Of a stretch of DNA of 64,000 bases, positions 1 through 24,751 are shown piece after piece (position 1 is the first letter of the stretch; every line of letters begins with the position of its first letter). The notes beneath the pieces were generated by a model. The model saw only the letters and a program-made list of their open reading frames with translations. It searched no databases and had not been told where the DNA came from. The stretch lies in NCBI RefSeq assembly GCF_012516395.1, contig NZ_CP051206.1, forward strand, positions 4,779,334 through 4,843,333, given 5' to 3'. Source of the DNA: Dolichospermum flos-aquae CCAP 1403/13F (GTDB lineage: Bacteria > Cyanobacteriota > Cyanobacteriia > Cyanobacteriales > Nostocaceae). The position numbers and the translations under genes are program-made.

Positions 1-373
1 GAAACTCCAGAACTTTAGCGTTATTAGCCGCAAGAGTGCGGTAATAGTCACCAAACGCTGGAGTTAGTAACACTGTTGCTGCTAATTGTCCCAATTCTCT
101 ACCCACCAGAGTTAATAATTCTGCTGAACCATTACCTGGCAAAATCCACTCAGTAGGTATTTGATGAAAATGACTCAGAGCAAGTCTCAATTCACCATAC
201 TCTGGGTCAGGATAATTCCTCAGATTGCCCAGTTGGGACACAATTGCAGCAATAACGCTGTTTGGTGGTCCCAACGGGCTGATACTGGCGGAAAAATCCA
301 CAATAGCATCAGGGGAACAGCCAGCCAGTGCTGCTGCCCAAGCTAAATTTCCCCCGTGTGCTTGTTGTGGCAT
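1..373 (-). CDS. Threonine-phosphate decarboxylase / class I-II aminotransferase (partial)
   Basis: N-terminal 124 residues of a PLP-dependent fold-type I enzyme; the rest lies beyond the left edge. It begins MPQQAHGGNLAWAA and continues with DFSASISPLGPP, NYPDPEY and LPGNGSAELL. The HGGN start and the 'N/S-x-NPLGPP'-like and 'GNGSAELL' blocks are typical of the CobC/HisC group, and the early HGGN favours L-threonine-O-3-phosphate decarboxylase, which supplies the aminopropanol arm of cobalamin. Histidinol-phosphate aminotransferase is the main alternative; the PLP lysine is not in the window. The ATG at 371-373 lies 26 bases after the HU stop on the same strand, so the two could share a transcript, although their functions are unrelated. 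Confidence 0.75.
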   Translation of the reverse strand, partial: MPQQAHGGNLAWAAALAGCSPDAIVDFSASISPLGPPNSVIAAIVSQLGNLRNYPDPEYGELRLALSHFHQIPTEWILPGNGSAELLTLVGRELGQLAATVLLTPAFGDYYRTLAANNAKVLEF

Positions 374-399
374 CAAAAATATCTTTCCTATAGAAGAAC

Positions 400-693
400 T
401 TACTCTTTTGGCTCTTTTGGGGGTGCTACTCTTTCTCTAAACAGTTTCCCAGCGGAGAAAGCGGGAACTCTGGTAGCGGGAATGTCCATTTTTTCGTTGG
501 TTTTGGGGTTGCGCCCTTCACGGGCTTTGCGTTCCCGTGATTCAAAAGAACCAAATCCTACCAATGTTACCTTATCACCGGAAGAAACCGCTTCCACAAT
601 GGTTTCGATGGCAGCACTCAAAACAGCATCAGCCTGTTTCTTGGTAACACTAGCCTTTTCTGCTACCGCATCAACTAATTCGCCCTTGTTCAT
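400..693 (-). CDS. hup: DNA-binding protein HU
   Basis: A 97-residue protein, close to the usual 90-94 of the HU/IHF family, with a short extra tail (APPKEPKE). The sequence shows MNKGELVDAVAEKA at the N-terminal helices, the VTLVGFGSF strand turn, the DNA-binding arm with GRNPKTNEKMDIPA, and the PAFSAGKLFRE C-terminal helix. HU is a homodimeric nucleoid protein that bends DNA non-specifically. In Anabaena, HU mutants fail to differentiate heterocysts (established knowledge). A good ribosome-binding site, TAGGAG, sits about 6 bases before the ATG, and a perfect hairpin lies in the leader. Confidence 0.97.
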   Translation of the reverse strand: MNKGELVDAVAEKASVTKKQADAVLSAAIETIVEAVSSGDKVTLVGFGSFESRERKAREGRNPKTNEKMDIPATRVPAFSAGKLFRERVAPPKEPKE

Positions 694-727
694 ATCAAAC
701 TCCTAAAGTTTTGCTAGAGATTATTTC

Positions 728-750
728 AAGATGCACCATGACTGCATCTT
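728..750 (-). promoter_or_regulatory. Perfect hairpin in the hup leader
   Basis: An 8-bp perfect stem (AAGATGCA / TGCATCTT) with a 7-base loop lies 35 bases upstream of the HU start codon, inside the presumed 5' leader. No U-run follows, so it does not look like a terminator. It could be a protein operator or an mRNA structure. The rest of the gap from 694 to 989 is AT-rich with no other recognised element. Confidence 0.35.
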
Positions 751-989
751 TACGTAAATTTCCGTTTGTAGAAATACAAAAATCGTTCCTTGAGAGTATT
801 TACACTCAAAATCGCTACAAATACGATTGACTCGACTTTTCAATGAATCATTCTAAAGCGTTGTCGCCCTAAGTGGATAGATGAAACTATTAATTTATAT
901 AGATTTCAGGATTTTTTTTGTTTTTTTACCTCTTTACTGTATTCAAAATACCCTATTTTTAGGAATGAATACTTAGTGGTCAGTGGTCA

Positions 990-1155
990 GTAGGGGCGAA
1001 GCATTTGGAAGATAAATTATCGGTCATTCCCAAAAATAGTTCTCCAAATAGACATCTCCGGTAATTAAATGTGCGTGGTTTGAAACCCTTGTAGAGACGT
1101 TCTATAGAACGTCTCTACATTCATTTTCACCAGAGGTCTAATGCTTCGCCCGTAG
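990..1155. repeat. 73-bp palindromic element, copy 1 (interrupted)
   Basis: Starts GTAGGGGCGAAGCATTTGGA and ends with the complementary GCTTCGCCCGTAG. It belongs to a 73-bp family seen eight more times in the window, and it sits in 7-bp TCAGTGG/TCAGTTG tandem repeats like most other copies. This copy is 166 bp because a 90-bp element plus a 3-bp duplication lies inside it; removing 93 bp gives exactly 73. Confidence 0.85.
1050..1139. mobile_element. 90-bp miniature element nested in the 73-bp repeat
   Basis: The interval begins AGACATCTCCGGTAATTAAA and ends CACCAGAGGTCT, imperfect inverted ends of about 20 bp. It is flanked by AAT on both sides (1047-1049 and 1140-1142), while intact copies of the 73-bp repeat have a single AAT here, so AAT is a target duplication. 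A perfect 28-bp palindrome (arms GTAGAGACGTTC, centre TATA) lies at 1091-1118. No coding capacity. The 3-bp duplication fits IS5-group transposition, but no parent element is in the window. Confidence 0.75.
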
Positions 1156-1174
1156 AGTGGTCAGTTGTCAGTTG

Positions 1175-1642
1175 TCAATTTTCCCCTGCTCCCTGCCCCC
1201 TGCTCTCTGCGTGTATTGATGACTTGATGACTTTGCCTCTGGCTTTAAGGACTCTGCGAAGTCGGTCAGCACTCAAGTAAACTTGTCGCTCAGATGCTAG
1301 TTTTTTGGCTAGTTGTTTAGAGTTGTAAGTTTGGGGTTCTTCAATTAGACAGTTTTCTAGATACTCTAAATCATTTTCTGAATAACGGGGTTTTCCTCCT
1401 CGCCCTGGAGCATCCCATAATCCTGCTAAACTCATCTTTTCCCAACGGTGTAAGGTCTGACGGACTGTAGAAACTGCCCAGTTTAAACCTTGAGCAATTT
1501 CCTCGTTTTTTAATCCCCTAGCGTTCAACAGTAGAACTTGAGCGCGATCTTTTGTTCGTTGAGGAGCGTCTTTAGACCTTCTTAACTCTTCTAGCGTTAA
1601 CTTTTCTTGATCAGTTAAAACAACTCTCAGTCGGCATCCCAT
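1175..1642 (-). pseudogene. IS630-type transposase N-terminal (HTH) remnant
   Basis: A 155-residue frame holding only the DNA-binding half of an IS630/Tc1-mariner-type transposase: a Lys/Arg-rich start, a helix-turn-helix around residues 35-70 (RAQVLLLNARGLKNEEIAQG), then the SLAGLWDAPGRGGKPRY linker and a second helical domain ending LRRVLKARGKV. The family normally continues with WKRTR and the DDE catalytic domain; both are absent. The last 12 or so residues (HAESRGQGAGEN) are translated from a CCCTGC-rich intergenic repeat, so the 3' half was lost and the frame now ends in repeat DNA. A free-standing HTH regulator is possible but less likely. Confidence 0.7.
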
Positions 1643-1901
1643 AGGACTGTTATTTTGATTAATGTATTTGGTATCTGACGTGGGTTTCCAGATGGATATT
1701 TTTAATTACAGTACATAGTAACAAATGATTTGTATGTATTATCAAAAATCTATTGGCTTCAGTGTAGCCCTATAACAGTTAAGTAAGTAGACGAAAATAA
1801 TTTCATGACTAAGTATTGTGACGCTATACAACAATACCTTTACCAAATTGAAAAAATCTTTAATTCGTAGGTTGGATTGATGTTAATTTTTGGTTGAAGC
1901 G

Positions 1902-1931
1902 AAAAAAAAGGTTTGGTCATATTACCAAACC
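1902..1931 (-). terminator. Rho-independent terminator, minus strand
   Basis: An 8-bp perfect stem GGTTTGGT/ACCAAACC with a 6-base loop (1910-1931) is followed on the minus strand by eight Ts (1909-1902). It is 366 bases beyond the stop of the second vWA gene and could be a back-up terminator for that operon. Confidence 0.6.
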
Positions 1932-1991
1932 TCCATAATTGCTGTGCTTAACAACGTACATAATTAATTTAGTGCTAATCTAGCCACATAG

Positions 1992-2034
1992 CATCTTCCT
2001 ATGGAATGTGTACAAATTCCTCTAAATGTGATAT
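1992..2034. repeat. 43-bp direct repeat, copy A
   Basis: CATCTTCCTAT followed by GTGTACAAATT and CTCTAAATGTGATAT; near-identical to the copy at 2189-2231 in the same orientation, about 197 bp apart. Confidence 0.75.
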
Positions 2035-2188
2035 ACCATGGCAACAACACATATTGACATCATAAATAGGAATTCATAAAATTTTACCAACTACTTTAAA
2101 TACAAAAAAGACCTGGGGTTAGCCAAGCCTTTATATATACCAGGTGTTTACCATATATAGCTACTTTAAACCTTATATTATTCTTATT

Positions 2189-2231
2189 CATCTTCCTATA
2201 AGGTGTGTACAAATTTCTCTAAATGTGATAT
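2189..2231. repeat. 43-bp direct repeat, copy B
   Basis: Second copy of the repeat at 1992-2034, differing at only a few positions. Function not evident. Confidence 0.75.
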
Positions 2232-2269
2232 TGCCGATGTCTATCTTGGTTTTTTACTAAAAATTTGAT

Positions 2270-2293
2270 AGGGTAGGTCAAAAGACCTACCCT
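2270..2293 (-). terminator. Hairpin after the vWA operon
   Basis: A perfect 10-bp stem AGGGTAGGTC/GACCTACCCT with a 4-base loop begins 4 bases beyond the stop of the second vWA gene. On the minus strand it is followed by ATCAAATTTTTAG, a weak U-rich tail. Probable transcription end for both vWA genes. Confidence 0.6.
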
Positions 2294-2297
2294 ACAG

Positions 2298-3578
2298 CTA
2301 TTCTTTCAAAACTGTCTTGGATGCCATTCTTGTCTTTTTGCGGTCAGCTTCCGATAGTTCTTCACCGGCTTGTAAGCGAGTTGCCGAAACTTGTAACACC
2401 GTGGCTGCACAGGTGTCACCGATTTGTAAGGCGGTATTAGCAGCAGTTTGTAACATTGTAACAGCACCAAGGCGATCGCCTAATTCTAATTTTGCCTCAG
2501 CCAATTGAGTTTGCCGATATTTAGCCAAAAGCAGAATCGAGTTTAGCACCTGGGAATTGAGAGCAGGTTCATAACTTTTCGTAAAATTAGCATATATTGG
2601 CACTAAGGGAGAAAGTAAACCCTGTTTATTCAGCGATGGGTCATCATAGCGAATTTGGATATGACCAATAACTTGTTTCCCTTCTGGCAATTGTCCCAGA
2701 TAAATATTCGCTAAAACTACCCGTTCGGTATCCTTCATCAAGTCCCCTAACCGCACCATTAAAGTCCCATTAGCATCGGTTTCTACTGGTAATTCAATGG
2801 TATCTGGCGCAACTTGGGCGACTGGTTTGAGTTCCGCGAGACGCACAACCGGCACTAAGGATAGAAGTAAATGGGCATTTGTTAATCCCACTGACTGCAC
2901 CCGTCGAAACAGCCGCGCAAATTGAGTTACAGCTTGTTCCGGGTTCTCGATATAAGCGAGAGTCCCACCCCCAGCATCAGCAATTTTTTCCAATAAATCT
3001 GGATTCCAGTCATCACCAAAACCCAGAGTGTTAATTGTCAGATTGAGTTTGGCGGCTTTTTGGGCAAGTTGCAAACACCGTTTATTGTCATTTGGTCCAA
3101 TTTGCCATTTCCAAATCTGTAAACCGTTATCCCCATGGCCATCTGTCAGTAAGAAGGCTTGGGAAACCGCGCCTTTTGTGCCTTTGAGTAGTTCTGTAAT
3201 GCCGAGAGATAAACCTTCGGCAATGACAGTACCACCACCAGCCTTCAGCTTGGCTTTGAGTTGGGTTTTGATGCTTTCAATATCTTGGACGATTTGGTTG
3301 GGGATAATGACCCCAGACGAGCCAGCAAAACCGATAACGGATATCCTGTCACCAGCTTTTAATTGATCCAATAATTGTTCAACTGCTTGAATGACGATAT
3401 TCATGGGTTCACCAGACATAGAACCACTTTGATCGAGAATCAAGCAGAGATTTAAGGGTAAATTTTGTTCAAGTTCAGAAGGCATAGCGGAAATGGAAAT
3501 TGAGAGTTGTCGTTGATTGCTTTGTTGGGCAGCATCAACGTTAGTATCATTTAGAGCCGATGTTAGTTGAACTTTCAT
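2298..3578 (-). CDS. von Willebrand factor A domain protein (second of pair)
   Basis: A 426-residue protein with no signal peptide or membrane segment. A vWA domain occupies roughly residues 40-225: the MIDAS motif DQSGS is at 50-54, GGTVIAEG supplies the conserved Thr, and AFLLTDG supplies the later Asp, so metal binding looks intact. The C-terminal half has a beta-rich region (LPVETDANGTLMVRLGDLMKD) and an alpha-helical tail ending SEADRKKTRMASKTVLKE. Its ATG overlaps the stop of the upstream paralogue (ATGA, 3575-3578), so translation is probably coupled. Cyanobacterial vWA proteins of this type have no settled function; a metal-dependent protein-binding scaffold is the safest description. 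Confidence 0.88.
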   Translation of the reverse strand: MKVQLTSALNDTNVDAAQQSNQRQLSISISAMPSELEQNLPLNLCLILDQSGSMSGEPMNIVIQAVEQLLDQLKAGDRISVIGFAGSSGVIIPNQIVQDIESIKTQLKAKLKAGGGTVIAEGLSLGITELLKGTKGAVSQAFLLTDGHGDNGLQIWKWQIGPNDNKRCLQLAQKAAKLNLTINTLGFGDDWNPDLLEKIADAGGGTLAYIENPEQAVTQFARLFRRVQSVGLTNAHLLLSLVPVVRLAELKPVAQVAPDTIELPVETDANGTLMVRLGDLMKDTERVVLANIYLGQLPEGKQVIGHIQIRYDDPSLNKQGLLSPLVPIYANFTKSYEPALNSQVLNSILLLAKYRQTQLAEAKLELGDRLGAVTMLQTAANTALQIGDTCAATVLQVSATRLQAGEELSEADRKKTRMASKTVLKE

Positions 3579-4831
3579 TGGGGGGAAGCATCTTGCAAAA
3601 CAGTTTTTGAGACAATTCTGGTTTTTTTGCGATCGCTTTCTGATAACTCTTCCCCAGCTTGTAGGCGGGTGGCGGAAACTTGCAATACCGTTGCCGCACT
3701 AGTATCACCCATTTGCAAAGCAGTTTTCGCCGCCGTTTGTAACATCGTCGCTGCACCAGCCCGATCACCCTGCTGTAATTTCGTTTCTGCTAACTGGGTT
3801 TGGCGATATTTGGCTAAAGCTAAAACCGACTGTTGTACCTGGGGATTTGGTGCTGGTTGGTATTCCCTGGTGACATGAGCATAAATCGGTAGATTGGGGG
3901 AGTGTAGCCCGATTTGGTTAGCGGCGGGGTCATCGTAGCGGACTTGCAGATTAGCGATCGCCTGTTTACCTTCTGGCAACTGTCCCACATAAATATTAAC
4001 TAAAACTACCCGTTCTCCGTCTTTCATTAAATCGCCCAATCTCACCACCAAGCGCCCATCGCTTTCGGGTTGTACTGGTAATTCAATGGTATCTGGGGAA
4101 ACTTGGGCAATGGGTTTGAGTTCTGCTAATCGGACATTAGGCATTAAGGATAATAATAGTTGAGCGTTAGTCAACCCCACTGTTTGCATTCGACTAAATA
4201 AGCGACCAAATTCCGATACAGCCTGATCTGGGTGCTGAATATAAGACAACGTACCCATACCAGCATCAGCGATTTTTTCTAAAACCTTATCATTCCAATT
4301 GTCACCAAATCCCAATGTATTTAGAGTCAAATTATAGTTGGCGGCTAATTGGGCAAATTTCAAACAGCGATCGTTATCACCATGTTCATTTTCCCCATCA
4401 GTCAGTAAAAATGCTTGGGAAACGGTATCATGTTTACCCTTGGCTAATTCCTCAATTCCCAACCGTAAACCCTCATCAATGGCAGTTCCCCCATCAGCGG
4501 TGAGTTGTTTAATTTGCTTTTTAATCTGTTGACGATCTGTAATTAACTGATTGGGGACTAAAACCTTGGCACGGTGGTCAAAAACAACTACACTGAGACG
4601 ATCTTCAGGAGTCAAACGATCTACTAACAAACAAGCGGCATTTTTCACCGTTTCTAGAGATTTTCCCATCATTGAACCGCTATGATCGAGAATTAAGCAT
4701 AAGTTCAAGGGTACAGTCCGATCTATAGTTTCACCACCAGCAGAAACGGAAACTACTAATTGACGTTGAGTGCTAGTTTGATTTGCATCTATACCAGCAT
4801 CATTGAGCGCTAGTTGTAAATTAATCTTCAT
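3575..4831 (-). CDS. von Willebrand factor A domain protein (first of pair)
   Basis: A 418-residue paralogue of the downstream gene, alike along the whole length. It has the MIDAS motif DHSGS at 50-54, GGTAIDEG, and FLLTDGENEHGDND. The shared tail LQVSATRLQAGEELSESDRK shows the genes arose by duplication of the complete gene. It is cytoplasmic by sequence. It leads a two-gene operon with the 4-base overlap described for its neighbour; the promoter should lie in 4832-5016. No MoxR ATPase or TerD-type gene, which often partner vWA proteins, is adjacent. Confidence 0.88.
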   Translation of the reverse strand: MKINLQLALNDAGIDANQTSTQRQLVVSVSAGGETIDRTVPLNLCLILDHSGSMMGKSLETVKNAACLLVDRLTPEDRLSVVVFDHRAKVLVPNQLITDRQQIKKQIKQLTADGGTAIDEGLRLGIEELAKGKHDTVSQAFLLTDGENEHGDNDRCLKFAQLAANYNLTLNTLGFGDNWNDKVLEKIADAGMGTLSYIQHPDQAVSEFGRLFSRMQTVGLTNAQLLLSLMPNVRLAELKPIAQVSPDTIELPVQPESDGRLVVRLGDLMKDGERVVLVNIYVGQLPEGKQAIANLQVRYDDPAANQIGLHSPNLPIYAHVTREYQPAPNPQVQQSVLALAKYRQTQLAETKLQQGDRAGAATMLQTAAKTALQMGDTSAATVLQVSATRLQAGEELSESDRKKTRIVSKTVLQDASPQ

Positions 4832-13204: not shown

Positions 13205-14470
13205 ATGTCTCCCAATCCTTTTTTTCCTGGAAAACCAGTTCCCCCAGAAAGTTTCATAGGACGGACATCAGAAATTAACTATGCTTTTGACCAAATCCAT
13301 AACCGCAGCCATTTCGCCATTTGGGGTGGTCCAGGAATGGGTAAGTCTTCATTTTTGCAGAAATTGGCTTCTGAGGAAACATGGCAAGAATATGGATTAG
13401 ATCCATCTCAAGGTATCGCTGTCATCCTAGATTGTCAAAGTCTCACTCCCTTCACTTCTAGTGGTTTTTGGCGAGAAGCTTTAAATCTGCTGCACAATAA
13501 ATTAGTCGGTGAACCACAACTACAAGCTGAAATCAAGCCATTACTTGAAAAACTGGCGACAAATGATAGTCTGCGCCAAGCATTACGGAAATTGGGTAAA
13601 CAAGATAAGTTTTTAGTATTGTTGGTAGATAATTTTGATGCAGCATTGGTAACAAACGATCAGTACACGGAAACAGAAATGGAAACATTTTTAGCTCAGT
13701 GTCGTAGTTTGGCGGTTCATGCGGAAGAAAGTCAATATCTCTCCATGATTGTGGCTTCACTCCAACGCCTCAGTGAATTAGGTCCCAAATTTAACCCCAA
13801 TGCTTCTCCTTGGTACAATCACTATTTGTTTCAATCTCTGAAATTGTTTACTACTAAGGATTTAGTTCAACTATTAAATAGTATTAGACCACCCACACTA
13901 CGGGGTGCAATCATGAATATCATCGGTGGACATCCAATGTTAGTCCAAACTGCTGGGTTTTTCCTAGATAGAGAACTACAGCGTGGGAGTAATGCTGATA
14001 TTAACTCATTTGCTGAGAATTTTGAAAGAGATACTCAACAGATTTTTCAGACAATTTGGTATAGATGCAATCTCAAAGAACAAGAGTTGTTAATGCTGAT
14101 AGGTTTATTAGATATGGAAGATCATATAAAGGAAATAAAATTTAAATTAAGTGGCATTAGTCGCATTCTTACACAACATGAACGATCTTTAAGCAAGTTG
14201 GAAGAACAGGGTGTAATTACTTCCAGTTCTTCAGAAATCGGAAAGTTTTACGCCTTCACTTCATTACTTATGAAAAAATGGGTGATTCAGGAGATTTTGC
14301 AGACTCCAGAACAATCAATCAGAGGTAGAGAAAAAGAACTTATGAATCTGATTAGTCATAAACAAGTAGAGCAAGTTAAAAAAGTAGTTACTTGGTTAGG
14401 GGAAAATCCAGAAAAAGTAAAATCTTTCCTAGATTGGATTGCAAAGGTAGTACCAGTATTTCCTGGATAG
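13205..14470 (+). CDS. P-loop NTPase of the STAND/archaeal-ATPase-like group
   Basis: A 421-residue soluble protein. It starts NPFFPGKPVPPESFIGR, followed by Walker A GGPGMGKSS (41-49), Walker B FLVLLVDNFD (136-145) and GGHPMLVQ with the GHP motif at 242-244, typical of STAND and archaeal-type ATPases. A winged-helix-like segment follows (RILTQHERSLSKLEEQGVI). The C-terminus (residues 375-421) is a helical tail (VEQVKKVVTWLGENPEKVKS) with no recognised effector. The opening layout 'NPF/YxxGKPV...FxGR' is shared with the two larger ATPases downstream, 95 and about 3260 bases away, on the same strand. It probably acts as a signal-transducing NTPase with them. Confidence 0.8.
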   Translation: MSPNPFFPGKPVPPESFIGRTSEINYAFDQIHNRSHFAIWGGPGMGKSSFLQKLASEETWQEYGLDPSQGIAVILDCQSLTPFTSSGFWREALNLLHNKLVGEPQLQAEIKPLLEKLATNDSLRQALRKLGKQDKFLVLLVDNFDAALVTNDQYTETEMETFLAQCRSLAVHAEESQYLSMIVASLQRLSELGPKFNPNASPWYNHYLFQSLKLFTTKDLVQLLNSIRPPTLRGAIMNIIGGHPMLVQTAGFFLDRELQRGSNADINSFAENFERDTQQIFQTIWYRCNLKEQELLMLIGLLDMEDHIKEIKFKLSGISRILTQHERSLSKLEEQGVITSSSSEIGKFYAFTSLLMKKWVIQEILQTPEQSIRGREKELMNLISHKQVEQVKKVVTWLGENPEKVKSFLDWIAKVVPVFPG

Positions 14471-14565
14471 ACATTTGAATAGAGAAGTTTGTTTTAACTT
14501 CTCTACTAAGTTTATAGATAATGATTGATCTGAAATTAAATTTATAGATTGGGAGCAAATAAAAA

Positions 14566-17500
14566 ATGTCTAAATTCCATCCAAATCCTTACATAGTAGG
14601 TAAACCAATTGAAGATCCAGAAAGATTTTTTGGACGCGAAGATTTGTTTGGTACTATTAATGATAGTCTTCAAGGAAATGCACAAATAATTTTATTATAT
14701 GGTCAACGAAGGATTGGCAAATCATCTGTACTCAAACAAATTCCTAAAAAATTGAGTACAGATGAATTTGTTTTTGTTGATTTTGATTTTCTACCCACAG
14801 TAAAATTGTCTAATTCGGAAATTTTACATTCAATTGCAACTAAAATTAAAGATAAACTAGAAACAAACGATAAAATTTTAACCCATTTTGCGAAGAATGT
14901 AGAAACCAATCTTGAAAGTTTTTCTCGTTATTTTCTACCAGAAGTTTATAAACATTTAGGTACTAAAAAATTGGTTCTGCTGTGGGATGAATTTGATGTT
15001 TTGACTGAAAGAGATCCTGGATTAGATGAAGATAGTAGGAATTTTTGTGATTATATTATAAAGCTATTGGAAAAAAATAATAACTTATTTATTATCCCTG
15101 TCGTGGGAAGACACATCTCAAAATTGCCAAAATTAAGTTCTTTATTAGGGAAAGCACCAAATATAGAAATTGGTTTATTGGATAAAAATCATACTAAAGA
15201 ATTAATTGTTAAACCCGCTGAGAGATTTTCAATATATGAAGAAGAAGCAATAGAAGAAATTTTCAATTTATCCGCAGGACATCCTTTTGTTACCCAGTGT
15301 ATATGTTCTGCCATTTATAATCTAGCACGCGATCGCTATAATCAAAAAAATGTGCTTCCCCAGAGTATAAATGGTCATGATGTTGAAAGTATCGTAGATA
15401 AAGCAATTATATTAGCTGAAGCTGGTTTAGATGGGTCCTGGGGGGGATTAACTACTGAGCAGCAAGTTATTTTTGCAGCAGCAGCAGAGGCTCGAAATAT
15501 AGCTATTCAAGAAAATGAACCTCCCCAGCTAATGCTATTAAGAAGCCATGGAATAGCAACAGAATATTTGAAAAAAGCAGACGAACAATTACATAAATAT
15601 GGTTTTTTAGATAATAACAGGGTTAAGGTAGAATTTGTCCGTCGTTGGTTGGTGAAAAGTCATCAGCTAAAAGAGGAAATTAGCAATTTAGAGACAGTTA
15701 AACAAGAAAATGTTAATAAGCTCTTGTCAGTAGCAGATGATTTGCGAGAACATGATGATACACGGGCAGTGCAAACTTATGAACTGGCTTTAAAGCTTAA
15801 TCCTAATAACTTTAAAACTGTAACATCTTTGGCTGACGAATATTTAAAGATTGAAGAACTTAATAAAGCCTGTGAATATTACAAACAAGCCTATCAATTC
15901 TATTCTTTTATCGGAAATATAAATAAACAAGAGTCTGTTTTACAGCCTTTATTAACTGTAGCTGAAAAATACTCAAAGGCAGAAAATTTTGAGCAAGCCT
16001 TGGAAATTTACAGACTAGCTGACGAAATTGATAGAGAAAGTAGCAAAGATGGTTTTTTACAGACAATAGAAAATTATGTCCATAAATTGATAATGGCAGA
16101 AGAATTGATTAAAGCAACAGAACAATGTCAATCAGGGTTAGAAATTGATCCAAACAGAATATTTTTTAAACAAAGATTAAAAGAAATTGAAGCCCGTGAG
16201 TCTAACACTAATCTTAACGTTGCAGCTAAACCTTTAAATAAAAAACCTTCTACAATCATGCTCAAATGGCTCAATCGTAGTTCAATACTCAGAGCATCTC
16301 TAGGATTAGCTGGAATTGTAGTTATTGGTGCAGGGATTTCTCAAGTTTTCAGAACTTGTCCAACAGGTGAAAGAAAGGAATTAGGTGTTTTTTGTGTAGT
16401 AGATAATAGTAGAATTAGTCGAGGCGATCGCACTTTTTCCCCTGAAACTACTAATATCCCCCGTGACAAAGGTATTCAAGCCCTTAAAAAAGGTGATTAT
16501 CCACAAGCTGCTAATCTATTTAAACAAGCTATCAAAGCCAAACAAAATGACCCAGAAGTGCTTATTTATTATAATAATGCCCTAGCTCGTCAACAAGGTT
16601 CTCCGTTTACATTAGCAGTAGTTGTGCCGTTAGATAAAGACCAAGATGATAGAAATGATGCCCAAGAAATATTACGTGGGGTAGCCCAAGCACAAAACAA
16701 ATTTAATAGTAATAAGGGCTTAAACGGCAGATTACTAGAGATTGTGATTGCTAATGATAGCAACACAGAAAAGGCTAAAGAAGTAGCACAATCGCTTATC
16801 AAAGATTCTTCAATACTGGGAGTAATTGGTCATAATTCTAGTGATGATACCAAGGCTGCATTACCAGAATATGCAAAGGCAAAATTGGCGGTTATTTCGC
16901 CCACTAGCACTAGCATTTTACTAAATAATCCAGTTTTCTTTAGAGCAGTTTATTCTGATGAAAGTGCGGGAAAAACACTTGCTGAATACACTTATAAAAT
17001 TCTGAAATTGAAAAAAGCAGTAGTCTTTGGCAATCCCAATAGTCCATATAGTAACAGCATCAGAGAGGTATTCACAAATCAATTTGAAAAACTAGGCAGT
17101 GAGGTGGTTCATAAACCCCTAATTGATTTAACTGCTCCTACATTTGATGCAGAGAAAGAAGTTGCTAAAAGCGTCTATAGTAATAAAGCAGAAGCAGCAT
17201 TGTTGTTTCCAGATACACGAAGCACTAAGATTGCTCTCAAGATTGCTATAGAAACTACCAAAAGAAACGAAACACTCAAAAGCAAAAATCCACCAAGACC
17301 AGAATTAAAAATGTTAGCTGGAGATACTCTTTATAATAATGAAACCTTAACCAGCGGTGGGAAAAATGTAGAGGGTTTAATTATTGCAATACCCTGGTTT
17401 AGAGAAACACCACAAGCTCAATCTTTTGCCAAAAAAGCAGAGCAGCAGTGGGGAGGAGGTATTAGTTGGCGAACTGCGACCAGCTTTGATGCAACCCAGG

Positions 17501-17694
17501 CTTTGATTAAAGCCTTATCTAATAATCCATCTCGTAGTACAGTATTAGGAAGACTGGAAAATGTCAGTCTTTCCGCAAATGAAACTTCGGGCGATCCTCT
17601 CAAGTTTACACCAGAAAGGGAGCGTGAAGGTCAATCTATTCTTTTACAAATTAAAGGGGGTAAATTTATGCCAATTGATTCAGTAAAGCCATGA
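14566..17694 (+). CDS. Transmembrane receptor-like fusion: NTPase + TPR + TM + periplasmic ligand-binding domain
   Basis: 1042 residues in clear segments. Residues 1-370 are a STAND/archaeal-ATPase-like NTPase: Walker A GQRRIGKSS (46-54), Walker B LVLLWDEFD (136-144), GHP 238-240, and a winged-helix end. Residues 385-545 are TPR helices (AVQTYELALKLNPNN, ALEIYRLADEID). One membrane helix lies at about 577-595. Next comes a paired-Cys motif CPTGERKELGVFC (598-610), a short TPR-like unit (632-675), and a type I periplasmic binding domain (about 680-1035; LAVVVPLD, VIGHNSSDDT, AVISPTSTSILL, FRAVYSDESAGKTLAEY). The layout implies ligand sensing outside the cytoplasm and NTPase output inside. A transport role is unlikely because no permease is fused or adjacent. 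Confidence 0.85.
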   Translation: MSKFHPNPYIVGKPIEDPERFFGREDLFGTINDSLQGNAQIILLYGQRRIGKSSVLKQIPKKLSTDEFVFVDFDFLPTVKLSNSEILHSIATKIKDKLETNDKILTHFAKNVETNLESFSRYFLPEVYKHLGTKKLVLLWDEFDVLTERDPGLDEDSRNFCDYIIKLLEKNNNLFIIPVVGRHISKLPKLSSLLGKAPNIEIGLLDKNHTKELIVKPAERFSIYEEEAIEEIFNLSAGHPFVTQCICSAIYNLARDRYNQKNVLPQSINGHDVESIVDKAIILAEAGLDGSWGGLTTEQQVIFAAAAEARNIAIQENEPPQLMLLRSHGIATEYLKKADEQLHKYGFLDNNRVKVEFVRRWLVKSHQLKEEISNLETVKQENVNKLLSVADDLREHDDTRAVQTYELALKLNPNNFKTVTSLADEYLKIEELNKACEYYKQAYQFYSFIGNINKQESVLQPLLTVAEKYSKAENFEQALEIYRLADEIDRESSKDGFLQTIENYVHKLIMAEELIKATEQCQSGLEIDPNRIFFKQRLKEIEARESNTNLNVAAKPLNKKPSTIMLKWLNRSSILRASLGLAGIVVIGAGISQVFRTCPTGERKELGVFCVVDNSRISRGDRTFSPETTNIPRDKGIQALKKGDYPQAANLFKQAIKAKQNDPEVLIYYNNALARQQGSPFTLAVVVPLDKDQDDRNDAQEILRGVAQAQNKFNSNKGLNGRLLEIVIANDSNTEKAKEVAQSLIKDSSILGVIGHNSSDDTKAALPEYAKAKLAVISPTSTSILLNNPVFFRAVYSDESAGKTLAEYTYKILKLKKAVVFGNPNSPYSNSIREVFTNQFEKLGSEVVHKPLIDLTAPTFDAEKEVAKSVYSNKAEAALLFPDTRSTKIALKIAIETTKRNETLKSKNPPRPELKMLAGDTLYNNETLTSGGKNVEGLIIAIPWFRETPQAQSFAKKAEQQWGGGISWRTATSFDATQALIKALSNNPSRSTVLGRLENVSLSANETSGDPLKFTPEREREGQSILLQIKGGKFMPIDSVKP

Positions 17695-17737
17695 GTTTTG
17701 ACGATGAAATTAATACTTTTAGAGGTACTATGAAACT

Positions 17738-20443
17738 ATGATTAATTCTCCTAAGTTTAGACAGAATCCCTATATTATTGGTCGTCCCGTTAACCGTGAG
17801 TTGTTTTTTGGGAGAGAAAGCCTATTTTCGTCTATTCAAAATAATATTCAAGACAATCGAAATATCATCTTGTTACATGGTCAGCGACGCATTGGTAAAT
17901 CATCTGTCATGAAGAATATTCCTGATAAATGTAATGATTTGAATAAGTCTGTTTTTGTTGCATTTAATTTACAATCCTATAGTCAAGAATCCCTGAGTAC
18001 AATTTTAGCAGATTTAGCTAAGGAGATAGTTAGTGAGTTGGATGATAAAAATATTAAAGTCCCAGAAATTATAGAGTTAGAATCAGATTCTGAAATTTTT
18101 TCTAATGAATTTTTACCGCGAGTATATAAATTATTAGAAAACAAAAATAAGGAAAATTTAGTATTGCTACTTGATGAATTTGATGCTTTAATGAATGGTA
18201 ATAATTCAGGAAAGCAGGTTTGTGAATATTTATCTTCTCTTACTAAGAGTAATAAAAAATTATTTTTAATTTTAATTTTCCTAACAGAATCATTAGTAGA
18301 TAAAGAAAAGCAAAAAGAGGCATTTAAATTTAAAATAATTAAGATGTTTAAGCCTAGTTCAGAACTAGAAATTGTGCCATTGGATGAAGAAAGTACAAAA
18401 AAATTAATTATTAACCCAGCAAAAGATATCCTTGAATATGAAGAAGATGCGATCAAAGAAATTCTTGATCTATCAGCAGGACACCCTTACTTTACCCAAG
18501 CGATATGTTTTAGTATTTTTGGGAAAGCGCGAGAGGAGAATAAGTGGACAGTTAGTAGTGAAGATGTAAAACTCATTATTAACAAAGCAATTGAATTAGC
18601 TGAGGCTGGTTTAACATGGTTTTGGGAAGGATTTTCGATTTTAGAAAAAGTTGTGTTTGCAGCGATAGCAGAAGCGCAAGAAAATTCAAATGATTATGTT
18701 GAATTAATAAAAAAATATAGACCTGAAACAGAAAATAAATTAATTACAGAAACAACACAAAGTCTCAGAAATAATGGGTTTTTAGATGAAATAAAAGAGA
18801 AAGTCAAAATAGAATTTGTCCGGCTCTGGATCATACAACGTCACCCACTCAGCGAAGAAATTCATGAGTTAGATAAAATTGAGCAAAAAAAAAGTCCTAG
18901 TAATAGTAATATAATTCCAGATTCAAACACTGTTGAGAGCGATTCTACACTTGAGAGTGATATTAATTTACATCAATCAAGTGAAGTTAATATTCCAGAT
19001 ATTCGTGCAAAATCCAATTTGATTATTTTAACTGCAATAGCATCTGTTGTTTTTATTATTTCTAGTATTATAGTAGCTAGTATTTCTCGCGGATCTAAAG
19101 ACTGCGAACCAGGTAAACGAAAGGAATTAGGTGTTTTTTGTGTAGGAGACAATAGTATAATTAATAGTAGAATTAGTCGAGGCGATCGCACTTTATTCCC
19201 TGAGATTAATAATATCTTTCGTGATAAAGGCATTCAAGCCTTCCAACAAGGTAATTATCCAGAAGCAACTACATTATTTCAACAAGCTGTAAAAGCTAAT
19301 CGTTATGATCCAGAAGTGCTAATTTATTATAATAATTCCCTGGCTCGTCAACAAGGTTCTCCGCTTACATTAGCAGTGGTTGTACCATTGGATAAAAGCA
19401 CGATTACTGATACTGCTAAAGAAATATTACGTGGAGTAGCCCAAACACAAAACCAATTTAATAAAAATAAAGGCTTAAACGGCAGATTACTAGAAATTGT
19501 GATTGCTAATGACAGCAATACAGAAAAAGCCAAAGAAGTAGCACAAGAACTCATCAAAGATTCTTCAATACTGGGAGTCATTGGACATATTTCTAGTGAT
19601 GCTACTAAGATGGCATTACCAGAATATGAAAAAGCCAAATTAGCAGTTATTTCCCCTACTAGCACTAGCATTTTATTGAACAATCCAGTTTTCTTCAGAG
19701 CAGTTTCTTCTGATGAAAGTGCCGGTAAAAAACTTGCTGAATATACTTATAAAAGTCTGAAATTAAAAAAAGCAGTAATTTTTGCTAACCCAACTAACTC
19801 ATATAGTAATAGTATCAGAGAGATATTTACAAATCAATTTGAGAAACTAGGGGGTGAGGTGGTTCATAAACCCCTAATTGATGTAACTACCCCTACATTT
19901 GATGCAGAGAAAGAAGTTGCTAAAAGTGTCTATGGTGATAAAGCAGAAGCAGCGTTGTTGTTTCCAGATACACAAAGCACTGAGATTGCTCTCAATGTTG
20001 CGAAAGAAATTACCAAAATAAACGAAACACTTAGAACTCAAAATCCACCAAGACGAGAATTAAAAATGTTAGGTGGAGATAATCTTTATCAGGGTGAAAT
20101 CTTAAACAGTGGAGGGAAAAATGTAGAGGGTTTAATCATTGCAGTACCCTGGTTTAGAGAAACATCACAAGCTCAATTTTTTGCCAAAAAATCAGATAAG
20201 CAGTGGGGAGGAGCTATTAGTTGGCGAACTGCAACTAGCTTTGATGCAACTTGGGCTTTGATTAAAGCTTTATCTAATAATCCATCTCGTAGTACAGTAT
20301 TAGAAGGATTGGCAAATGTCAGTCTTTCCCCAAATGAAACATCAGGCTATCCACTCCAGTTTACACCAGAAAGGGAGCGAAACGGTCAATCTATTCTTTT
20401 ACAAATTAAGGGGCGTAAATTTACTATAATTCCCAATAATTAA
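17738..20443 (+). CDS. Paralogous NTPase + TM + periplasmic ligand-binding fusion (no TPR)
   Basis: 901 residues, a paralogue of the preceding gene, 43 bases downstream. The NTPase (1-375) has Walker A GQRRIGKSS (48-56), Walker B LVLLLDEFD (141-149) and GHP at 248-250. A Ser/Asn-rich linker (385-425) replaces the TPR region. The membrane helix is at about 427-448 and the paired-Cys motif CEPGKRKELGVFC at 456-468. A type I periplasmic binding domain fills 540-895, much more similar to its neighbour than the NTPase part is. The uneven similarity suggests duplication followed by exchange or stronger constraint on the sensor half. The reading frame is intact. Confidence 0.85.
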   Translation: MINSPKFRQNPYIIGRPVNRELFFGRESLFSSIQNNIQDNRNIILLHGQRRIGKSSVMKNIPDKCNDLNKSVFVAFNLQSYSQESLSTILADLAKEIVSELDDKNIKVPEIIELESDSEIFSNEFLPRVYKLLENKNKENLVLLLDEFDALMNGNNSGKQVCEYLSSLTKSNKKLFLILIFLTESLVDKEKQKEAFKFKIIKMFKPSSELEIVPLDEESTKKLIINPAKDILEYEEDAIKEILDLSAGHPYFTQAICFSIFGKAREENKWTVSSEDVKLIINKAIELAEAGLTWFWEGFSILEKVVFAAIAEAQENSNDYVELIKKYRPETENKLITETTQSLRNNGFLDEIKEKVKIEFVRLWIIQRHPLSEEIHELDKIEQKKSPSNSNIIPDSNTVESDSTLESDINLHQSSEVNIPDIRAKSNLIILTAIASVVFIISSIIVASISRGSKDCEPGKRKELGVFCVGDNSIINSRISRGDRTLFPEINNIFRDKGIQAFQQGNYPEATTLFQQAVKANRYDPEVLIYYNNSLARQQGSPLTLAVVVPLDKSTITDTAKEILRGVAQTQNQFNKNKGLNGRLLEIVIANDSNTEKAKEVAQELIKDSSILGVIGHISSDATKMALPEYEKAKLAVISPTSTSILLNNPVFFRAVSSDESAGKKLAEYTYKSLKLKKAVIFANPTNSYSNSIREIFTNQFEKLGGEVVHKPLIDVTTPTFDAEKEVAKSVYGDKAEAALLFPDTQSTEIALNVAKEITKINETLRTQNPPRRELKMLGGDNLYQGEILNSGGKNVEGLIIAVPWFRETSQAQFFAKKSDKQWGGAISWRTATSFDATWALIKALSNNPSRSTVLEGLANVSLSPNETSGYPLQFTPERERNGQSILLQIKGRKFTIIPNN

Positions 20444-21774: not shown

Positions 21775-22080
21775 ATGACAGAAAATAATCAGGATAATAT
21801 CAGTAATACTGAAGAAACTTCTCAAGGAACAATCATAGTTGCTGGAATGCGTCCCATTACCACCGGGACATTACAAGTAGTTGATACCTTCAACTCTATG
21901 GGAATTCGTCCCATAGGTGCAAACACATTCCAAGTAGTTGATAGTATTAACTTGTCTGGTATTCGTCCCATTGGTTCTAGTGCCTTGGTAGTTTCTGACA
22001 ACTATTCTGTCTTCGGAAATCGGCCAATAGCGCCAAATACCTTCGATGACTCCGAACTTTTGATGGGTTTTCTAGACTAA
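21775..22080 (+). CDS. Small protein with four 19-residue repeats
   Basis: 101 residues, preceded by a strong ribosome-binding site (AAAGGAGAAATAAAA). After an acidic/polar leader of about 20 residues, the motif (G)xRPI occurs at 26, 45, 64 and 83, exactly every 19 residues, in units like GIRPIGANTFQVVDSINLS. It ends with an acidic tail DDSELLMGFLD. There is no Cys, no signal peptide and no membrane segment. The regular period suggests a stacked beta-solenoid-like or modular binding protein. Not recognised as a named family; a peptide-precursor role was considered, but no maturation gene is nearby. Confidence 0.8.
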   Translation: MTENNQDNISNTEETSQGTIIVAGMRPITTGTLQVVDTFNSMGIRPIGANTFQVVDSINLSGIRPIGSSALVVSDNYSVFGNRPIAPNTFDDSELLMGFLD

Positions 22081-24144: not shown

Positions 24145-24177
24145 AGATCCCCGACTTCTTAAAGAAGTCGGGGATCT
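24145..24177. repeat. REP-like 33-bp palindrome, 3' side of the RAYT gene
   Basis: AGATCCCCGACTTCTT and its complement around a one-base centre, nearly perfect. It overlaps the stop codon of the transposase gene (24176-24178). Same family as 24796, 31410, 50688 and 62642. Confidence 0.9.
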
Positions 24178-24751
24178 ATTCTAAATCTAGTAGCAGTTTT
24201 TTGAAGTCACTGCTATGAGGTAAGTTATGATCCGCTAAAAATTGCTGATAAACTGATTCTTCCTCAATCTGCATTTTGATATACTCTATCTTGGGTATTG
24301 TTCCTTTTCTTAATCCAGCATATTCTAAATAACTGGAAAACTCCCATTCTTCGGGTTGCTTCACCAGTGATGCTTTCACAGGATTGAGATGAATATACTG
24401 AGAGAGGTTAACAAGATAGTCAGTTTGTGAAATATGAATACTTTGAAACCTTCCCTGAAATAATACTCCAGAACGGTTAAAACGTTTATTAATTGCTTTT
24501 GTGTAAGAAAGTGAGAGAGATTTCATAGCATCAGAAAGGGTTTCATCTCTCAGATAGACTAGAAGATGATAATGATTAGGCATTAAACAGTATGCAATAA
24601 TATCTACTGAGTTTTTAATTAGATGTTCTCTGATCAGTCGAAGAAAATAAATATAGTTTTCACGTTCAAAGAAAATTATTTGGCGATTGTTTCCGCGATT
24701 ATAAACATGATAAAAGTTGCCAGTTTGGAGTGGAATCCTTCTTTGTCCCAT
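24176..24751 (-). CDS. REP-associated tyrosine transposase (RAYT), HUH family
   Basis: 191 residues of the Y1 transposase (TnpA-REP) group. It has NFYHVYNRGNNRQIIFFERE, the HUH motif MPNHYHLL (H60-x-H62), SLSLSYTKAINKRFNRSGVL and LFQGRF. The Tyr-bearing block is LSQYIHLNPVKASLV (Tyr119 the likely nucleophile). RAYTs cut and move REP palindromes as single strands (established for E. coli). The gene lies exactly between two inverted palindromes at 24145 and 24796, forming an apparent REPtron. Other palindromes of the same family are scattered through the window. Confidence 0.92.
   Translation of the reverse strand: MGQRRIPLQTGNFYHVYNRGNNRQIIFFERENYIYFLRLIREHLIKNSVDIIAYCLMPNHYHLLVYLRDETLSDAMKSLSLSYTKAINKRFNRSGVLFQGRFQSIHISQTDYLVNLSQYIHLNPVKASLVKQPEEWEFSSYLEYAGLRKGTIPKIEYIKMQIEEESVYQQFLADHNLPHSSDFKKLLLDLE

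Follow-up and report, generated by a model that had tools for sequence, protein, structure and literature searches.

What is encoded by three consecutive same-strand P-loop NTPase genes of Dolichospermum flos-aquae CCAP 1403/13F, two of whose products also carry a membrane helix and a ligand-binding domain? The genes lie in a 64,000-nucleotide stretch of DNA (hereafter the window) that was analysed as a whole. This arrangement, noted in a preliminary description of the locus, was confirmed, and the one-protein receptor anatomy proposed there is supported: the NTPase, the membrane helix (hydropathy), the Cys pair and the binding domain (Peripla_BP_6) were all found. We name the soluble protein P and the two receptors R1 and R2 by gene order. 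We give an even chance to the reading that P, R1 and R2 build one heteromeric STAND-type transmembrane receptor complex, in which the receptors would share a ligand and assemble with each other, and P would act as the output arm.

Features of the P-R1-R2 locus, in window coordinates
Feature	Position	Strand	Basis
P, soluble STAND-type NTPase partner, 421 aa	13205..14470	+	motif reading, Pfam
R1, first receptor, 1042 aa (NTPase-winged helix-TPR-TM-Cys pair-TPR-like-binding domain)	14566..17694	+	
R1 cytoplasmic NTPase and winged helix, aa 1-385	14566..15720	+	Walker A 46-54, Walker B 138-144
R1 cytoplasmic TPR/linker region	15721..16284	+	Pfam TPR matches, aa 384-490
R1 membrane helix, aa 574-594	16285..16347	+	hydropathy
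R1 C-x11-C just outside the membrane, C598 and C610	16357..16395	+	kept in relatives
R1 periplasmic type I binding domain	16606..17691	+	Peripla_BP_6, 4.2e-25
R2, second receptor, 901 aa (plan of R1 minus the cytoplasmic TPRs)	17738..20443	+	AlphaFold2 model
R2 cytoplasmic NTPase and winged helix, aa 1-395	17738..18922	+	Pfam, AlphaFold2 model
R2 membrane helix, aa 428-449	19019..19084	+	hydropathy; low confidence in AlphaFold2 model
R2 C-x11-C, C456 and C468	19103..19141	+	
R2 periplasmic type I binding domain	19364..20440	+	

STAND NTPases (NLR, CED-4, archaeal ATPase_2) are mostly soluble proteins with an N-terminal effector, and a GxP motif after the NTPase core marks the class, whose members oligomerise in dependence on nucleotide and lack an arginine finger. 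The Walker A and B motifs, the GxP motif and an NTPase plus winged-helix fold of the NLR/CED-4/archaeal STAND type place the proteins of this locus in the class. P runs from Walker A (aa 41-49) through Walker B (aa 139-145), GxP (aa 241-244) and a winged-helix region to a tail. When fixed patterns were searched in defined stretches, with cut genes kept in the set, Walker A, Walker B and GxP were detected in 68, 66 and 55 of 72 P proteins, and Walker A, a DE-type Walker B and GxP in 103, 85 and 91 of 107 R proteins. Furthermore, the NTPases of a natural R-P fusion among the homologues match STAND and ORC folds, and its P half has a predicted fold like CED-4/NLR. The fusion model has a pTM of 0.51 and was not usable for a direct R-P interface; Foldseek results in which double AAA+ proteins (Rix7, p97) were mixed in at rmsd > 30 were discarded. 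The rows of A2 were 28 second and 14 first receptors, and those of A3 were 7 fusions and 12 P proteins. NTPase matches start at residue 15-23 in all three window proteins, and Pfam, NCBIfam and PADLOC recognised no N-terminal effector domain of the Avs kind in P, R1 or R2 (for R1, among the 25 of 28 Pfam families listed), no EAD or effector domain in the unit and no output domain in P; Pfam gave no kinase match in any of the three. The mechanism proposed earlier, hydrolysis in place of a kinase, is better put as a predicted STAND nucleotide switch that assembles a complex. Two resemblances were noted by eye in other loci: the N-terminus of L056 looks caspase-like, a family absent among the 25 of 50 listed, and a suspected TIR-like C-terminus of L097_5156 was dropped, with no Pfam match and no useful PDB match.

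The periplasmic domain of the receptors has the type I binding-protein fold, and its closest folds and sequences are the amino-acid binding proteins of ABC importers. This would suit a role in solute uptake, with the binding domains feeding a transporter that the NTPases energise or regulate, but we consider such a role very improbable. The domain is neither free nor lipid-anchored like a solute-binding protein, which is encoded together with a permease and an ABC ATPase, but fused behind an NTPase and a membrane helix, and it is common to kinases and a CHAT protein as well. A scan of ten further window proteins gave no match to an ABC permease family, nor is one conspicuous in the recurrent neighbour families of the loci, and the STAND/ORC folds of the fusion NTPases also speak against transport. 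Kinase fusions made up 18 of the 50 module-bearing ORFs examined, a count biased because the 40 genome stretches behind it were mostly picked for long frames.

Matches to the receptor module occur in 120 of 148 genomes of the order (E <= 1e-10, membrane helix not required). In a sample of the same size, P was found in 11 of 148 genomes (E <= 1e-10) and R in 10 of 148 (E <= 1e-30); all 10 R genomes are among the 11 with P, and the eleventh holds only a 71-aa P piece. P-R pairing is near-obligate: R comes immediately after P in 69 of 77 loci and is fused to it in 3, which bears out the earlier view of the genes as a unit that stays together elsewhere. The scan behind these 77 loci needed one of two peptide patterns, so distant P relatives would be missed. 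R-P fusions were seen at seven named loci and one contig edge, also at L087/L089, and in L110 a single 1508-aa protein has the order R-R-TM-binding domain. The neighbour families found most often, at 14 and 13 loci (MetF- and TrpS-like by eye), suggest a settled chromosomal place in those loci; another family, kinase-like, was seen at 9. No conserved effector gene adjoins the unit among the loci, and a conserved effector neighbour was rejected for want of a recurrent family of that type. Promoter and terminator motifs in the scan were no more numerous than in shuffles.

These surroundings bear on the alternative that the unit is a conflict receptor for defence or self-recognition, in which the binding domains would sense an extracellular cue of competitors, of phage lysis or of dying neighbours and trigger cell death or dormancy. 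In most of the 77 record titles the genus is one that we take, without a count, to be filamentous, and R1 and R2 show weak similarity to the PADLOC candidate PDC-S01 along roughly 80 of 412 positions, both of which would suit this alternative. STAND, CHAT and EAD parts are also typical of conflict systems in the portions of the literature covered (PMC7159879, PMC10907252). Nevertheless, we judge it unlikely, given that P, R1 and R2 are free of recognised effector domains, that the recurrent neighbour families include no effector candidate, that the unit has no plasmid match, and that the recurrent flanking families speak for a settled place in their loci. A plasmid-borne unit was rejected for want of a plasmid match, and a known defence system because PADLOC matches were only partial.

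The two receptors had been suggested to respond to different ligands. We compared them in loci with exactly two R-binding-domain genes, drawn from a pool of the 77 named loci, the window and L042 (29 loci for quick trees with SH-aLRT only, 28 for identities). On the NTPase tree the R1/R2 labels need 4 changes (shuffle mean 19.7, 0/500 as low), and on the binding-domain tree they need 15 (10-14/500 as low). Within loci, the median R1-R2 identity is 44.5 for the NTPase and 65.7 for the binding domain, with the step located at the membrane, and the binding domain is the more identical part in 25 of 28 loci; between species, same-position pairs have identities of 49.5 and 52.7, respectively. The two NTPases diverged long ago in most lineages, and the sensors tend to be homogenised within loci, partially, since the binding-domain tree keeps some R1/R2 clustering. 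The suggestion of different ligands is therefore not supported.

Alternatively, R1 and R2 may be separate homomers with different inputs, their sensor likeness reflecting recent duplication or partial conversion. The differing TPR content of R1 and R2 in the window and the residual label clustering of the sensors are consistent with this, as are L112, L128 and L132, where identity is greater between the NTPase halves than between the sensor halves. R1 and R2 are unseparated on the NTPase tree in these three loci and L129, and their binding domains are 46-54% identical in L112, L120, L122 and L128. We rate separate homomers as decidedly unlikely, because the NTPases form position-specific groups in most lineages, same-locus sensors tend to cluster, and the second receptor can persist after sensor loss. 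Among tandem receptors in which one has no sensor or a cut sensor, the affected one stands second in 5 cases and first in 0, with R-P fusions left out and close relatives among the 5; adding three tandems that start with a sensorless R-P fusion makes it 5/8.

Which protein carries the signal onward is a separate matter. Walker B of the window P reads DN instead of the DD of most relatives, which may make P a weak hydrolase. A P-tail profile (A4) gave 12 matches in 8 genomes, all 12 in P genes or P pieces and none in other proteins, and recruitment of an effector via the tail was rejected on this basis. The N-terminal 240 aa of a P variant in L088/L134 have no Pfam match. Some R proteins (L092, L127, L145) end in a C-terminal kinase beside an ordinary P, so the output may sit on R rather than P. 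Together with the altered Walker B, the missing output domain and the P-restricted tail, these kinases are what one would expect if P regulated the R NTPases as a brake, nucleotide exchanger or assembly chaperone and the signal left via R or effectors encoded elsewhere. We think this improbable in view of a parallel group, the AAA_35 receptors. A recognisable N-terminal domain is present in 20 of 21 intact soluble AAA_35 partners (8 CHAT, 10 HTH-like of which 7 are weak matches only, 1 EAD4 in L054, 1 PNP_UDP_1), which favours the soluble partner as output and agrees with the earlier proposal for the small NTPase. For this set, 20 of the AAA_35 matches listed were examined and four were already listed (two in L039, with L052/L054); G268:C223, G298, G319 and the partial G155 are outside it. 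It is plausible, at somewhat less than even chance, that bacteria have built membrane-spanning NLR-like receptors at least twice, with an outside flytrap driving a membrane STAND and a dedicated soluble STAND (output carrier or recruiter) together, the window representing the R1/R2 heteromeric form.

In the heteromeric complex that we favour, R1 and R2 would each cross the inner membrane once with the N-terminus inside. Their similar Venus-flytrap domains, with the fold of amino-acid binding proteins, would share one small ligand, held probably between R1 and R2 acting as a pair, with R1 as the possible main binder and R2 as a co-receptor with a dispensable sensor. Flytrap closure may be transmitted through the Cys-capped helices, whereupon both cytoplasmic NTPases would change nucleotide state and co-assemble with soluble P, a putative NLR/CED-4-like relay.

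The literature searched, with limited terms, gave no description of a STAND-TM-periplasmic-binding receptor with a paired STAND, and within it the label 'undescribed' stands for the paired system. It does not extend to the widespread receptor module, nor to binding-domain fusions with Ser/Thr kinases and caspase-like proteases, which are already published. In the source portions covered, antiviral Avs are mostly soluble STAND proteins with an N-terminal effector, and STAND proteins that use lectin sensors, one of them predicted to be periplasmic, are also described (PMC10907252). Avs sense phage proteins and protect from phage. In contrast to STAND NTPases such as Avs, the sensor here lies in the periplasm, beyond a membrane helix; no effector domain was seen, and a second STAND serves as a dedicated partner. 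Ser/Thr kinases of Nostoc sp. 7120 with an ANF_receptor/periplasmic-binding domain (PMC1262709) share this kind of binding domain, whereas in the present receptors a STAND NTPase, paired with a soluble NTPase, forms the cytoplasmic part. Caspase homologues of cyanobacteria that carry ANF_receptor or Peripla_BP_6, the latter counted 8 times in an accessory-domain table (PMC3501461, PMC8283722), likewise feed a cytoplasmic signalling domain from a periplasmic-binding domain, but their effector is a same-chain protease, not a paired NTPase. The conflict systems of Kaur et al. 2020 include STAND parts, effector-associated domains and one TM-periplasmic-binding variant, which is part of a two-gene caspase/EACC1 system common in actinobacteria and scattered in proteobacteria; a paired STAND receptor was not found in the portion covered (PMC7159879). 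Animal Venus-flytrap receptors (mGluR) have seven helices and no STAND part, and the analogy is one of layout, with only the fold shared.

STAND switches are known chiefly as soluble sensors of intracellular things, as in the apoptosome, the inflammasome, the plant resistosome and Avs. If our reading is true, a STAND switch coupled directly to a ligand-binding domain in the periplasm, and provided with its own soluble STAND partner, would reveal how signals from outside the cell reach such switches. The unit would then parallel sensor/helper NLR pairs, but with an extracellular ligand, and would serve as a compact bacterial model of such pairing. The AAA_35 cousins make the idea testable, since a CHAT or HTH-like domain is frequent in their partner and gives a ready read-out.

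The receptor reading of the preliminary description is upheld: the opening motif shared by the soluble STAND-type NTPase gene P and the receptor genes R1 and R2, and the membrane helix (TM), the C-x11-C motif, and the C-terminal periplasmic binding domain of the two receptors, were all found by ORF, Pfam, and motif checks. The three genes lie in a 5.2 Mb genome. The closest named records for P come from Dolichospermum sp. LEGE 00240 (90% identity) and UHCC 0259 (89%), and its Walker B motif carries DN, versus DD in most relatives.

Coordinates of the genes described in the window and in retrieved loci (L)
Feature	Position (strand)	Length	Description
P	window 13205..14470 (+)	421 aa	AAA_22/AAA_16; same strand as R1 and R2; 95-base gap to R1
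R1	window 14566..17694 (+)	1042 aa	ATPase_2 and Peripla_BP_6; same strand as P and R2; 43-base gap to R2
R2	window 17738..20443 (+)	901 aa	ATPase_2 and Peripla_BP_6; same strand as P and R1; last of three consecutive ORFs
Repeat ORF	window 21775-22080	101 aa	by eye, about four repeats built on an RPI motif; nothing matched in Pfam
Y1_Tnp protein	window 24176-24751 (-)		Y1_Tnp (IS200-like) transposase domain; possibly a domesticated repeat-associated type
Second receptor, genome G058	L037 9755-12115 (+)		binding domain apparently shortened internally (by eye), NTPase intact
Flanking gene	L133 7318-8331		example of the MetF-/TrpS-like families (by eye)
Flanking gene	L167 6793-7827		example of the MetF-/TrpS-like families (by eye)
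AAA_35 partner	L178 4031-6136 (+)		soluble, N-terminal PNP_UDP_1 nucleosidase-type domain
PNP_UDP_1 gene	L179 5009-6010 (-)		separate gene adjoining an AAA_35 receptor
nSTAND1 protein	L056 213-7202 (-)	2330 aa	nSTAND1 and WD40 repeats between an N-terminus that looks caspase-like by eye and a C-terminal periplasmic-binding domain
CHAT protein	L058 9006-11654 (+)		CHAT and the same binding domain in a single chain, separated by a hydrophobic stretch (by eye)
Gene trio, source genome	L006 (G000:C1:3295893-3299924) 234-3680		consecutive genes: NB-ARC-like NTPase, TM-Cys-pair-binding domain, Ser/Thr kinase

P and the receptor genes with an R1/R2-type NTPase (R) are one unit. Among 148 genomes sampled from the order, P is present in 11 (E <= 1e-10) and the R2 NTPase in 10 (E <= 1e-30), every one of them among those 11; the sole P genome without an R2-NTPase match (G128) holds only a 71-aa piece of P. 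A P profile run against one genome per species (84,980 species) returned 111 relatives, the best 80 of which gave 77 loci, all cyanobacterial by title. R directly follows P on the same strand in 69 of these loci (median gap 53 bases), which upholds the proposed grouping of the genes, and P is fused to R in three. In the other five, P lies at a contig end (L126), is N-extended (L134), is split with R further along (L137), is in fragments (L162), or is an orphan (L146). No effector family recurred among the neighbors in the 77 loci; 14 loci share one flanking family and 13 another (MetF-like and TrpS-like by eye), and a kinase-like family is seen in nine.

A hydropathy helix is found in all 69 receptors of the R1/R2 kind from these loci, with a mean of 3.6 K/R per 20 residues ahead of it and 2.4 past it, which fits an N-in, C-out topology. 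The Cys pair is present in 58 of the 69 (x11 spacing in 46), and the binding core is cysteine-free in 58, so the two residues probably form a disulfide hairpin where the chain leaves the membrane. Where the membrane sensor is replaced, R may carry a Ser/Thr kinase (L092, L127, L145), another P-loop domain that is KAP/ATPase_2-like (L148, L168, L172; weaker in L090), inserted GAF domains (L093), or just a membrane segment (L116, L135), or it may stop without Pfam domains other than TPRs (L130, L133, L153). The P-R core is thus stable and the C-terminal part exchangeable. Contact between the parts is supported by R-P single chains (L104, L110, L149, L150, L151, L158, L170; also L087, L089, and, at a contig edge, L118) and by a 1508-aa R-R-TM-binding domain chain (L110).

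First and second receptors were compared in trees of 29 two-receptor loci and by identity in 28. The NTPase tree separates them with four label changes, whereas 500 shuffles averaged 19.7 and none got down to that number; it groups 25 second-gene rows (SH-aLRT 99), with L112, L128, L129, and L132 unsplit. The binding-domain tree needs 15 changes, matched by only 10-14 of 500 shuffles, so some label signal is left. Median identities inside loci are 44.5% for the NTPase, 27.5% for the membrane segment, 67.8% for the outer linker, and 65.7% for the binding domain, the last being closer than the NTPase in 25 of 28 loci (just 46-54% in L112, L120, L122, and L128). Across species, same-position pairs (n=300) give 49.5% for the NTPase and 52.7% for the binding domain, so the latter is not merely slow-evolving. 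DNA identity between R1 and R2 of the window is 0.43-0.68 as far as the helix and 0.75-0.93 past it. The simplest reading of these sequences would be that the outer halves are repeatedly gene-converted, so that two different NTPases keep one ligand. Two ligands for the two receptors, as suggested earlier, are disfavored, since the sensors tend to be homogenized inside loci and the NTPases do not. Tandem receptor pairs from the 77 loci comprise 27 binding-binding, four binding-TM-only, and one binding-truncated, with three unscorable (contig ends or fragment); the reverse order, with a sensorless first receptor, is absent save for three tandems starting with a sensorless R-P fusion. The second receptor of genome G111 stops after the membrane segment (by eye).

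An independent parallel to P-R, again a membrane receptor with a soluble NTPase partner, is formed by AAA_35-TM-binding-domain receptors, which were sought in 388 genomes (20 retrieved and five from before, 25 examined). In 20 of the 25, the receptor is directly preceded, in the same orientation, by an intact soluble AAA_35 protein, including one with an intervening 207-aa ORF and one with a 726-base gap; the partner is partial in two, adjacent on the opposite strand in one (L054), and absent beside two (L065, L179). The N-termini of the 21 intact partners are CHAT (8), HTH-like (10; three clearly over the Pfam cut-off, seven weak), PNP_UDP_1 (1), EAD4 (1), or without assignment (1). In contrast to these output-type domains, P bears none by Pfam, and its tail was common to no other protein found when a profile of the tail was run against eight genomes. 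By analogy, mainly because the AAA_35 arrangement recurs and its soluble protein bears domains of an output type, P may be the output arm.

With the parts, pairing, fusions, evolutionary pattern, and folds of homologs established computationally, a P-R1-R2 receptor complex is the best explanation, in which ligand binding would close the periplasmic domain, closure would be coupled across the membrane, the receptor NTPases would co-assemble with P, and P would relay the signal. Going by fold only, the ligand may be amino-acid-like.

The part of R1 that starts at the TM and runs to the C-terminus is matched in 120 of the 148 genomes (E <= 1e-10), with many matches beginning in the outer linker, beyond the helix. 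The 50 module-bearing ORFs examined, window included, comprise 18 kinase fusions, 10 R fusions, and 22 others: five AAA_35 fusions, one CHAT, one nSTAND1-WD40, one TPR protein, and 14 (367-574 aa) that match neither kinase nor R and were mostly compared with those two only. Judged by these matches, the sensor is a plug-in common to several protein types. Earlier papers already describe Nostoc 7120 proteins that join a kinase to ANF_receptor (PMC1262709), caspase homologs carrying ANF_receptor or Peripla_BP_6 (PMC3501461, PMC8283722), and a TM-binding-domain variant within a caspase/EACC1 system that is prevalent in actinobacteria (PMC7159879). The gene trio of the source genome (L006) looks like a receptor divided among three genes.
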